The notes below the pieces were generated by a model. The model saw only the letters and a program-made list of their open reading frames with translations, had not been told where the DNA came from and did no database searches. Shown one piece after another: positions 18,353 through 27,068 of a stretch of 64,000 bases of DNA; position 1 is the first letter of the stretch, and each line of letters begins with the position of its first letter. The translations under genes and the position numbers were made by a program. The DNA comes from Zopfochytrium polystomum (taxonomy: Eukaryota > Chytridiomycota > Chytridiomycetes > Chytridiales > Chytridiaceae): positions 124,001-188,000 of the forward strand of contig JAIVFJ010000035.1 of the NCBI GenBank assembly GCA_025765615.1, read 5' to 3'.

Positions 18353-18480
18353 GAGAGAGAGACAGAGAGAGAGAGAGAGGGACAGAGAGAGAGAAAAAGA
18401 GAGAGAGAGACAGACAGACAGAGGGTTGATTCATTCGTTGAACAGAAGAACGAAAAAAAAAAAAAAAAAAAAAAAGTACA
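18160..18480. repeat. T-run, (GA)n array and A-run in the 5' flank of the acidic-protein gene
   Basis: A run of about 30 T (18166-18195), four GTTG units, a GA dinucleotide array with GACAGA interruptions (about 18273-18423) and a run of about 23 A (18453-18475). All lie just upstream of the start codon at 18116. Confidence 0.9.
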
Positions 18481-18559
18481 GTGAGCGGCCAGAAACTCCA
18501 CCGGCAAAGCGTGTTGTTGATCGGCACAAAATGTGGCCCAGCAATGGCTAGCCGACTTT

Positions 18560-19560
18560 CACCCCCATTCATCAAGAAACTGTTTCTTGAGGAACAAACA
18601 TTCTGTTTCCTCTACTTGTTTATCTCTTATCACAGAATTAATTATGTCGCTGTGAGACTACACCAAGGTCTCAGTGATAAAGTCTAGGGATTTTATTCGC
18701 AAAAACAAGCGTACCTGTCATAAAACCGCAAGGATCGGGACCCCTATTATTGCTCCCAGTTCTTTAGTTTCCAAGGCATTATCAAAGTGTATTTGCGGCT
18801 AACCCGTCGTTATTATTGGGCCTGCTTTTACTACTTTTGTCTTAACAGTTTCTGTTGCACCAGGGTTTTCTCAACATATTTTCTTTTTCGGTGACTAACG
18901 AAGACTGCCCGACTGCCTAGGGATGGGGTGCCCTGTCTGTCCTGTCGCTATTAACCGCTCCTGTTGTATTTGAGATTAGGTTCCTAAGATAAAAACCCCT
19001 GTATCAGTAGGGATACTTCGTGGACTAGGCAAGTAGTAGGGTTGAAACACCCCCTAGACAACAGCCCAATAAAGTTAGTTTTAGCCTATTATTTGCTTTC
19101 CCTCACTCTAGGGCCCAGATCCCAGGGTCAAAGGAGTGAGTATAGTCTCACATCGCGCAGGAGGAAAGAACTGGAAATTCCCATTTTGCTGCCTGCTGCA
19201 CCACCAACCACAGCCTGTCTCATTGTCCCAGCAGCCGCCACCCCAATCCACCCAATCACAAGAACCGATTGAAGTTAACGAGAAATTTGCTGTACAGCAG
19301 CTGGCCAAGTTGTATGTGAAATCTGAAGGAACTCAAGTGGTTTCTTTGCCATCATCATCTTCTTCTCAAGCAACCAGAGCTGAAATGGGATGGAGTGAGA
19401 AATTTGCAAGAACACAGCAGGCGCAAAAGGCTGAAGAGGCCGACAAGGCTGATGCAGAGGAAACACATTCGGTCAACAACTCTACCAACTCCAACAAACA
19501 AAATCAGCCTAGCTCAAAAGTAGAGACCTTCTTGTTGGGAAGGCGAAAATTCGGCACACT
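18560..19560. other. AT-richer mobile-element debris, no readable gene
   Basis: Base composition drops sharply in GC relative to the flanking genes. Open frames are short and shifted. A longer frame at 19136-19567 (+) encodes Ser/Gln/Ala-rich sequence with a Lys/Glu-rich helix-like stretch (SEKFARTQQAQKAEEADKA). Its position just upstream of the Fanzor remnant suggests it may be the decayed N-terminal part of that gene, but I see no diagnostic motif. Confidence 0.35.
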
Positions 19561-20280
19561 CTCCTGATTGACTCTGTCATTCAATCCGGGCGTGCAATAG
19601 CGCATTCAAAACGCCTGAATCTCCTCCTTCCAACAAATTATCACAAAGCCGCTATGAGCATTGTCTCAAGTGCGGTGAAATTGCTCAGGACGCTACATCT
19701 TTGGAGCCCACGTTGAGGAAACATATCCATAGCAAGTTGGAGGTACTGGAAAATCTATGGAAGGTCTGCCACAGCAGTTCTGTGCCTGGCACTCAGGCCA
19801 ACTTTGCGGCAGCAGAGAAAGTACGTTCTTGACTGGCAAGTTCCATGGGCGACTACGAGACTGCATTGAAACACCAGGTCTGTCACAAGCTGGAAAGCAG
19901 AAAGCAGTGGCTGGAGGGCAAGATACAGAGAAGGTCAACGGCCTTCACGAAACTGCCATATGTTTTCTTCTCTGCTATAATGTAGTCTTCCTTCCCAAGC
20001 TGGAGGTTGGGCGCTTTTGGCAGCGGAAGGACCGCCGAAACCTACTGCAGTTGTCAAGCAAAGCTTTGCTAGCCCGAGGCATGCAAAGTTTCGCGAGGCA
20101 CTTGAGAAAGCAGCAGCATCTCAGACAGCTCAGTCAGGTCAGGTCACAAAGATTATCGAGGTTGGCAAAGCTTTTATGTCCAAACACTGCTCCAAGTGCG
20201 GTGCCGACAATGACCCTGGAGCAAGCGAGACCTTCCATTGCAGTGATTACAAAGTCACTCTGGATTGCGACAGCTGTTAG
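19561..20280 (+). pseudogene. decayed Fanzor (eukaryotic TnpB-like) nuclease, C-terminal half
   Basis: Three frames read in succession resemble the C-terminal part of TnpB/Fanzor proteins. Frame one ends near 19934 with RKQWLEGKIQR. Frame two (19931-20008) gives VNGLHETAICFLLCYNVVFL followed by PKLEV, like the helix and strand that precede the second RuvC acidic residue. Frame three (20017-20280) gives SPRHAKFREALEKAA, then VGKAFMSKHCSKCG at 20158-20202, then GASETFHC, the family's zinc ribbon. The second CxxC pair is eroded (HCSDYK), and the frame stops at DCDSC where the third RuvC aspartate is expected. The copy therefore has at least two frameshifts and a truncated end and cannot be functional. 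Earlier RuvC motifs were not found. Fanzors are RNA-guided nucleases of mobile elements; family assignment is by motif pattern. Confidence 0.65.
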
Positions 20281-20689
20281 GCAGAACTGACTGGTTAGCA
20301 GCAAGAGGCACAAGACGGACCCGAACCTATTGTGACTGTCAGTTATTGTTCTCACAATGCCCATGGGAGAGCCAGCCACCGCCAATGCAGACCTGGGCGC
20401 TGGCTTGCGCTGATGACAAATACTCTGAGTATTAAGCGGAACAGAAACCCAGTGTCAATAGTTTTCCTCTTCCTCTGCTCAAGCAGATAATATAGGAGAG
20501 GTTTTTACCCTGTGCCAGTCACGCTTGCCAAGCAACTATTACAGCATGCATATCATCATCATCATGTATCAATAATTCATAACAGAGTTTTTCTCTTCCT
20601 CTTGAAGTTGGGGAGAAGGACAACCCACAAACACACATCTCCACTTCACTCACTCCTTCCACTCACTCACTCAGAGTAGACTGTTTACA
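20275..20689 (+). repeat. ~415 bp dispersed repeat, copy 1
   Basis: This stretch recurs almost unchanged at 26653-27068. It starts with TGTTAGG at the last codon of the Fanzor remnant and ends with ACTGTTTACA; flanking sequence differs on both sides. It carries a short ATC array (about 20551-20563). On the reverse strand it contains GGTTCGGGTCC (about 20315-20325), which resembles a Pol III B box. It could be the 3' end of the Fanzor element or an independent short element nested in it. Confidence 0.85.
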
Positions 20690-21005
20690 ACAGCGATGCA
20701 GCTTGGAACATCTTTGTGAATGCCGTCAGCAAGATTCTTCAATCTGAAGAATTTGCAAACACGCAGTGCGTGGAGCCTCATGCGGTGGGCATTCAAGCTT
20801 CAAAGTTGCTTTGAATTGTGTGAATGATTGATGGATCTATAGTGTCCGAGATTTGCTTTGAGCCGACTTTATGGAGCTTGTTAGTACTGCTTCATTCTCA
20901 AGTTTGCGGACCTTTTATCTTTCTGTCGTAAACAATCGTGGCTGTGCGGTTCATTCTAGTTTTTTTTTTCTCTTTCCGTCACTCACAGTAAAAAGAGAAA
21001 TCATA
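20690..21005. other. 3' flank of the DDHD gene
   Basis: Unique AT-richer sequence between the repeat and the stop codon of the DDHD gene. No gene is seen. It probably includes that gene's 3' UTR. Confidence 0.4.
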
Positions 21006-26652: not shown

Positions 26653-27068
26653 TGTTAGGTGGAACTGAGTGGTTAGCAGCAAGAGGCACAAGATGGACCT
26701 GAACCTATTGTGACTGTCGGTTATTGTTCTCACGAAGCCCATGGGAGAGCGAGCCACTGCCAATGCAGACCTGGGCGCTGGCTTGCGCTGATGACAAATA
26801 CTCTGAGTATTAAGTGGAACAGAAACCCAGTGTCAATAGTTTTCCTCCTCCTCTGCTCAAGCAGATAGTATAGGAGAGGTTTTCACCCTGTGCCAGTCAC
26901 GCTTGCCTAGCAACTATTACAGCATGCATATCATCATCATCATGTATCAATAATTCATAACAGAGTTTTTTCTCTTTCTCTCCAAGTTGGGGAGAAGGAC
27001 CACCCACAAACACACATCTCCACTTCATTCACTCCTTCCACTCACTCACTCAGAGTAGACTGTTTACA
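26653..27068 (+). repeat. ~415 bp dispersed repeat, copy 2
   Basis: Same orientation and near-identical to 20275-20689, with scattered substitutions and one-base indels. It begins with TGTTAGG and ends with TGTTTACA. There is no Fanzor-like coding sequence upstream of this copy. The reverse-strand GGTTCAGGTCC keeps the B-box-like pattern. Confidence 0.85.

Follow-up and report, generated by a model that had tools for sequence, protein, structure and literature searches.

Our analysis of a 64,000-nucleotide stretch of the Zopfochytrium polystomum genome (the window; C35:124001-188000 in a genome of 80.16 Mb and 761 contigs) very probably uncovers a long-dead and apparently non-viral chytrid transposon with terminal inverted repeats (TIRs), which carried the gene for a Fanzor-type RNA-guided nuclease as its 3' part. 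What is left of that gene is, going by its sequence, the decayed 3' half of a Fanzor-type (TnpB-like) nuclease gene, and it extends Fanzor elements to a genome of the Chytridiales. The remnant belongs to the Fanzor type; RNA-guided cutting would be a trait expected from its family. An earlier note on this DNA had named a Fanzor remnant and placed it at 19561 to 20280. The name has held, with a match over cut-off to the TNB zinc ribbon (PF07282) for the read-through, mimivirus L79 as best solved relative, the Ealt-C4 signature whole in a sister copy and RuvC-I not found. The extent has not, as the feature runs from about 18478 to 20989 and 19561-19650 is high-copy repeat outside the gene (Table 1).

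Table 1. Parts of the dead Fanzor element, in positions of the window
Feature	Position	Strand	Evidence
Whole TIR Fanzor element, dead, with three nested insertions	18478..20989 (left border approximate)	+	5' part aligns to L054:4143-4320; 3' end CACTCACAGT common to sister copies
5' terminal region, left TIR very degenerate (ACAGTGAGCGG...)	18478..18650	+	alignment to L054 5' end
Nested insertion 1: 502-bp repeat TGTGAGACTA...TAGTCTCACA, TCGC on both sides, solo-LTR-like or MITE-like	18651..19152	+	85-100% pieces in L053, L056, L057, L058, L061
5' (N-terminal) part of the element, inside a 151-aa open frame (19112-19567)	19153..19473	+	73-86% matches elsewhere
Nested insertion 2: high-copy repeat of ~176 bp, tRNA-SINE-like by eye	19474..19650	+	at least 32 matches, 76-82%
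Fanzor 3' half: linker helices, RuvC-II helix/strand, KFREALEKAA helix, zinc ribbon, RuvC-III start	19651..20274	+	profile scores; 82-87% identity to sister copies
Nested insertion 3: solo LTR, 415 bp, TG...CA	20275..20689	+	duplication ACAGC at 20270-20274 and 20690-20694
Remainder of RuvC-III and C-terminus, DAAWNIFVNAVSKILQSEE...	20690..20800	+	sister loci L051, L053, L054, L055 uninterrupted here
3' non-coding region, common to sister copies	20801..20966	+	sister alignment; no convincing RNA fold
Right TIR, reads ACTGTGAGTGACGG... on the - strand	20967..20989	+	pattern search

In support of this identification, frame translations of the plus strand give LHETAICFLLCYNVVFLPKL, KFREALEKAA and AFMSKHCSKCG in the place and order that the note had claimed. 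They do so in two frames rather than in three successive ones, LHETAICFLLCYNVVFLPKL lying in 19733-20290 and KFREALEKAA sharing 19981-20280 with the AFMSKHCSKCG zinc ribbon, and the reading is broken by an in-frame stop near 19.83 kb and by frameshifts near 19.93 kb (an extra one) and 20.04 kb. The second zinc pair is indeed eroded (HCSDY, its last Cys turned into Tyr), the Glu ahead of the ribbon has become Lys (VGKAF versus VGEAF in L048, L053, L054 and L055) and the first Thr of TS has become Met. RuvC-III, held to be missing, is in fact interrupted: LDCDS is followed by a 415-bp solo LTR and, from 20690, by DAAWNIFVNAVSKILQSEE. The copy is dead, as the note had it, with stop, frameshifts, lost Glu and Cys and an LTR-split RuvC-III, and it does not make a functional nuclease today. 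We take the 415-bp repeat for a solo LTR because of its TG...CA ends and its 5-bp duplications, which are perfect in 9 of the 14 distinct full-length copies among the loci examined. Since full-length copies of the LTR are 92.8-95.0% identical to that of the window (one is 85.8%), as compared to 84-88% among sister Fanzor copies, its insertion was probably the younger event. A second solo LTR of the same family occupies 26653-27068 of the window, with the duplication TTATG.

Profile scores point the same way. The bare frame 19981-20277, whose figures do not depend on any choice of frame, matches PF07282 with an E of 1.8e-4 (22.1 bits, under the 26.3-bit cut-off); the window read-through, joined across the LTR, reaches 1.4e-7 (32.0 bits, over the cut-off), a score that depends on frame choice because the rows of our family alignment A1, this read-through included, were typed by hand. 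Among these hand-typed rows, seven of eight match PF07282 at E<=0.1 (best E 6.8e-13), and the one that does not is probably the 59-aa row that is out of frame before the ribbon. Could a different zinc-ribbon protein, ribosomal eL43/L40e or a generic Zn ribbon, simply mimic TnpB here? The bare frame does match Zn_Ribbon_1 (E 0.019) and L40e (E 0.0083), and eL43/L37a chains come up with a mixed profile (A2), their E values going from 0.017 upward. With the read-through at 1.4e-7 for PF07282 against 0.022-0.037 for two other matches, and with a match to L79 that already sets in at the RuvC-II strand, well ahead of the ribbon, we regard such mimicry as very improbable. The profile comparison that the note had proposed came out in favour of the nuclease: a PF07282 match that crosses the frames lies over the cut-off and the rival zinc-ribbon families score worse. 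Against the PDB, the A1 profile has the mimivirus TnpB-like protein L79 (9b0l) on top, in an alignment that spans the RuvC-II strand to RuvC-III, and Cas12f and TnpB chains come next.

Signature residues speak for a Fanzor within this wider group. According to PMC10711439, two features separate Fanzors from most TnpBs, a DPG motif at RuvC1 and, in RuvC2, a Glu that precedes the zinc finger by six residues. The Ealt-C4 pattern taken from there, ExxxxxxCxxCx(12,18)CxxCx(4,8)D, fits the sister copy at C170:49 kb (L054, the same as L006/L033/L038) unchanged (EAFTSKRCSKC...CSECKVTLDCD). It finds no match in the window and none in 15 shuffled windows; the alternative Glu is present also in L048, L053 and L055. 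Where the canonical RuvC-II Glu is concerned, the Glu of PKLEV stands opposite Asn in L79, in an alignment to L79 only. For RuvC-III, the motif given in PMC3627910 is x(5,50)-RD after the ribbon. Our family has LD-x-[DN]-[SG] in seven of the eight aligned rows that reach RuvC-III, followed by NAA in six of eight, and RD itself is divided: Arg occurs in L049/L048 (LDRN) and the second Asp together with Cys or His (LDCD, LDHD), and none of the rows has both. Besides DRN in L048/L049, the variants are DCD, DCN, DHD, DNN or NHN. Loss of Arg codons that contain CpG would be expected, as observed/expected CpG is 0.30-0.62 in the copies measured. RuvC-I with its DPG is absent from every family copy read, the region itself not being present in them, and a genome search with PF01385 gave four places only, all in the IS607 group described below and none in the window family. 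Full Fanzor membership is thus left unproved because RuvC-I was found in no copy read.

Carriage of the gene by a eukaryotic transposable element is seen in conserved ends, multiple copies and an equal order of units, with both TIRs in no copy read. The order of units is the same in the window and in C170, and we let the unit extend over about 18478-20989 because the bases between the shared parts are the three insertions. At the right, a 22-bp TIR pattern has 31 genome matches (up to 3 mismatches) and its backward control none; the inverted counterpart ACTGTGAGTGACGAGGGAGAAC of the right end CACTCACAGT is found at L054:4143 and shares a locus with the Fanzor half of L054 (C170:49 kb). Only the right TIR of the window was found: a pattern search that allowed up to 6 edits gave no left one, and one end of the window copy does not align to the other. 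We therefore draw the left border from the homology between the 5' part and L054; among the copies read, none keeps both TIRs. The homology to L054 has a local score of 35; none of 300 block shuffles exceeds 20, the best other plus-strand place in the window (88-base steps) scores 17, and the BLAST alignment covers 18493-18597 at 65%. The part at 19153-19473 is common to at least seven other places at 73-86% (C732, C170, C127, C42, C118, C89, C95), five of which (C170, C127, C732, C42, C95) also carry part of the 5' region.

As for the insertions, the 502-bp repeat has no other full-length copy among the loci examined. The search that detected the repeat of about 176 bp gave at least 41 matches, 32 of them to 19474-19650 (40 of 102 candidates scored). 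By eye this repeat seems tRNA-SINE-like, with a presumed box A/B resemblance; ARAGORN called no tRNA in the window, and Rfam at gathering thresholds had no matches within it.

The 3' half, made up of the coding end and the 3' non-coding region, is repeated in the genome, with 46 DNA matches at 31 places by our own grouping, in which the query itself, the window and apparent duplicates are included (31 of 31 candidates scored). C120, C153 and the end of C5 (L048, L049, L050) are one locus, near-identical at 98.5% or more over 5-8 kb through either segmental duplication or uncollapsed haplotypes, and C6/C717 as well as C136/C42, with equal match scores, are apparent duplicates. Sister copies are 84-88% identical to one another and 82-87% to the window copy. 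Every copy read is broken, that is shortened, frameshifted or stopped: the longest stop-free family frame (297 aa, C153) has its middle out of phase, and L055, open over 136 aa, is a partial piece with internal deletions. Observed/expected CpG of 0.30-0.62 in six copies (window, L049, L051, L053, L054, L055), compared to 1.03 for the whole window, suggests a methylation-like decay of the copies measured. Their GC content is 43-51%, that of locus L006 (the C170 copy) 53% and that of the window 55%. Outside this genome we found no relatives, the single match among 125 candidate proteins being the fungus's own gene model and a second search giving 0 of 28. The model, DFJ73DRAFT_765507, a hypothetical protein of Zopfochytrium polystomum, matches a sister copy and is hereby indicated to be a piece of a Fanzor pseudogene. 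Two side observations concern single loci. A short segment of the 3' region, L053:4606-4650, appears inverted relative to sister copies (inverted arms; minus-strand matches). L059 (C439:4.7-5.4 kb) and L068 (C40:257 kb) are distant decayed relatives with the motifs KRRVNGLHK and RRTVNGLSLHK, L059 carrying a YRCRQCSAVMDRD ribbon end, and on these motifs they may possibly form a second dead Fanzor-like family.

What kind of transposon carried the gene is a matter of its 5' half and its ends. It may have been Tc1/mariner-like, its 5' half being the remnant of a transposase with a helix-turn-helix and its 3' half a Fanzor passenger, an arrangement published for the mariner elements PGv-1 and PUl-1; this would refine the explanation given above and does not exclude it, and we entertain it tentatively, at clearly less than even chance. 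Fanzor1 in mariner elements has been described (PMC3627910), and the ends of our element are conserved. TA adjoins the right end in three of the six copies that keep CACTCACAG (window, L062, L069), the count leaving out eight other right-end copies whose end is lost or incomplete, and the left end in one of two (window). It is absent from the right ends of L051, L064 and L070 and from the left end of L054, so TA beside some ends suggests a mariner-like transposase only weakly. No transposase was found: the pieces scanned with Pfam have no DDE domain, and a 122-aa stop-free piece of L074 as well as window 19112-19474 match no Pfam family at E<=1. Another candidate, an HTH_OrfB_IS605 domain in the 5' half of L054 (where VWILHPETQMRGLREWLPFNRAADAEQWVF looked alike by eye), was rejected, L054:4370-4495 having no Pfam match at E<=1.

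The helix-turn-helix itself comes from L074 (C170:112470-113070, minus strand), where the 5' half of the element reads as a Q-rich stretch and then a homeodomain-like helix-turn-helix. This joined reading matches PF00046 with an E of 0.011 (16.0 bits, under the 22.9-bit cut-off) and, in the PDB, has homeobox proteins for all 11 of its matches at E<=10 (best E 0.018). We give these scores little weight because two pieces were joined by eye over an intron-like stretch with the homeodomain pattern as a guide, and the longer unjoined piece matched nothing. The link of the L074 part to the nuclease rests on the order of parts in the window, as none of its places, except possibly C89, adjoins a known Fanzor 3' half. 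Our literature search for Fanzor with homeobox or homeodomain found, among the papers listed and going by their listings, no work on such a fusion. In a further reading, which we consider improbable, the element would have arisen when an IS607 Fanzor2 was captured, and it would have combined its Fanzor-type nuclease with a DNA-binding module of homeodomain-like character in the 5' half; if true, this chytrid would hold both ends of the proposed path from Fanzor2 to Fanzor1.

IS607-type relatives are indeed at hand. Across the genome, 14 places match PF07282, each of them over the cut-off: six in the window family (C170, C56, C219, C99, C120, C5), seven in another group (C231, C554, C12, C638, C150, C337, C131) and a remaining one on C190. 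From this other group, L002 (C554:1206-4397) stays open for 605 aa inside the locus (615 aa by genome search), with HTH_OrfB, OrfB_IS605 and TNB all over cut-off; the 605 aa count the whole open frame, the TnpB-like part of which begins near residue 200. A second frame of 219 aa, which carries Resolvase and MerR domains (a serine-recombinase TnpA frame), overlaps it, and by its domains the locus appears to be an IS607-type pair with an apparently uninterrupted Fanzor2-like gene. The complete published Fanzor pattern, DPG included, matches L002, L003 (C12) and L004 (C638), the latter two closely related to each other. PF00239 has three places in the genome and none in the window family. The L002 protein has 255 relatives at E<=1e-5 among 6908 candidates, mostly metagenomic among the matches listed (120 of 255). 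With a GC content of 30-37% (L001-L004, L007, L008; L002 37%), or 40% in the decayed L005, compared to 55% for the window, these AT-rich loci are possibly viral inserts. The expectation of the note that intact relatives may exist elsewhere holds in part: the genome has uninterrupted IS607 Fanzor2-like genes, and of the window family no intact copy was seen. One genome, then, holds one Fanzor family that is dead and another, IS607-type, that is apparently uninterrupted, and for further study the C554 copy has more to offer than the remnant.

This raises a question of class within our explanation, namely whether the nuclease is Fanzor2* instead of Fanzor1, in which case a eukaryotic TIR transposon would have taken up an IS607-type Fanzor2, a course of events published for algae and molluscs. 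L79 as closest solved relative, the IS607 Fanzor2-like genes in the same genome and the fact that C554 was found with the protein of a sister copy (E 2.8e-4, 31% identity) all fit such a capture. However, the comparable sequence amounts to only about 100 decayed residues, the PDB match lists cannot separate Fanzor1 from Fanzor2 because no chain named Fanzor is among them, and a TIR context alone fits Fanzor1 equally. We see Fanzor2* as possible, at less than even chance.

For the TIR element as such, of whichever Fanzor class, the sequences show the C-terminal half of a Fanzor-type protein, many broken copies, decay with loss of CpG and, in the window copy, the later arrival of the solo LTR, the SINE-like repeat and the 502-bp repeat. 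When alive, the protein would have been guided by RNA read from the right end of the element and would have cut DNA, which, to judge from the family, may have helped the element to persist at or return to its site. Precedent comes from SpuFz1 of another chytrid, for which guidance to DNA by an RNA copied from the right end has been shown (PMC10432273). An omega-RNA was not found here: 12 of 15 right-end copies, some not reaching the TIR, have a consensus fold of -3.2 kcal/mol and the reverse strand one of -3.1. A column-shuffle z of -11 was discounted as a signal of RNA structure because it is an artefact of a near-zero control.

Among known systems, L79, which we take to be one of the Mimivirus Fanzor2 proteins, resembles the remnant by a profile match (E 3.9e-10) that spans RuvC-II strand to RuvC-III. 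Table 1 of PMC3627910 places Mimivirus among Fanzor2 families. L79 differs in being viral and 520 aa long, whereas the window family belongs to a TIR element of a chytrid, and no neighbouring IS607 TnpA was seen. SPu-1 with SpuFz1 (Spizellomyces punctatus, Fanzor1) comes close in its chytrid host, a Fanzor gene within a TIR element, many partial or gene-less copies and Gypsy/Ty3 retroelement insertions in some loci. SPu-1 has 17 full-length copies, among them intact 633-aa genes, and TIRs of 30-33 bp (PMC3627910), and a 2023 count gives 19 full-length genes (PMC10432273); in contrast, every copy read here is broken, about 22 bp of the TIR can be recognised, and neither RuvC-I nor an omega-RNA was found. 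Finally, Fanzor2* of Chloropicon and Mercenaria (PMC10711439) is likewise a Fanzor in a non-IS607 cut-and-paste transposon with TIRs, unlike which the window family is dead.
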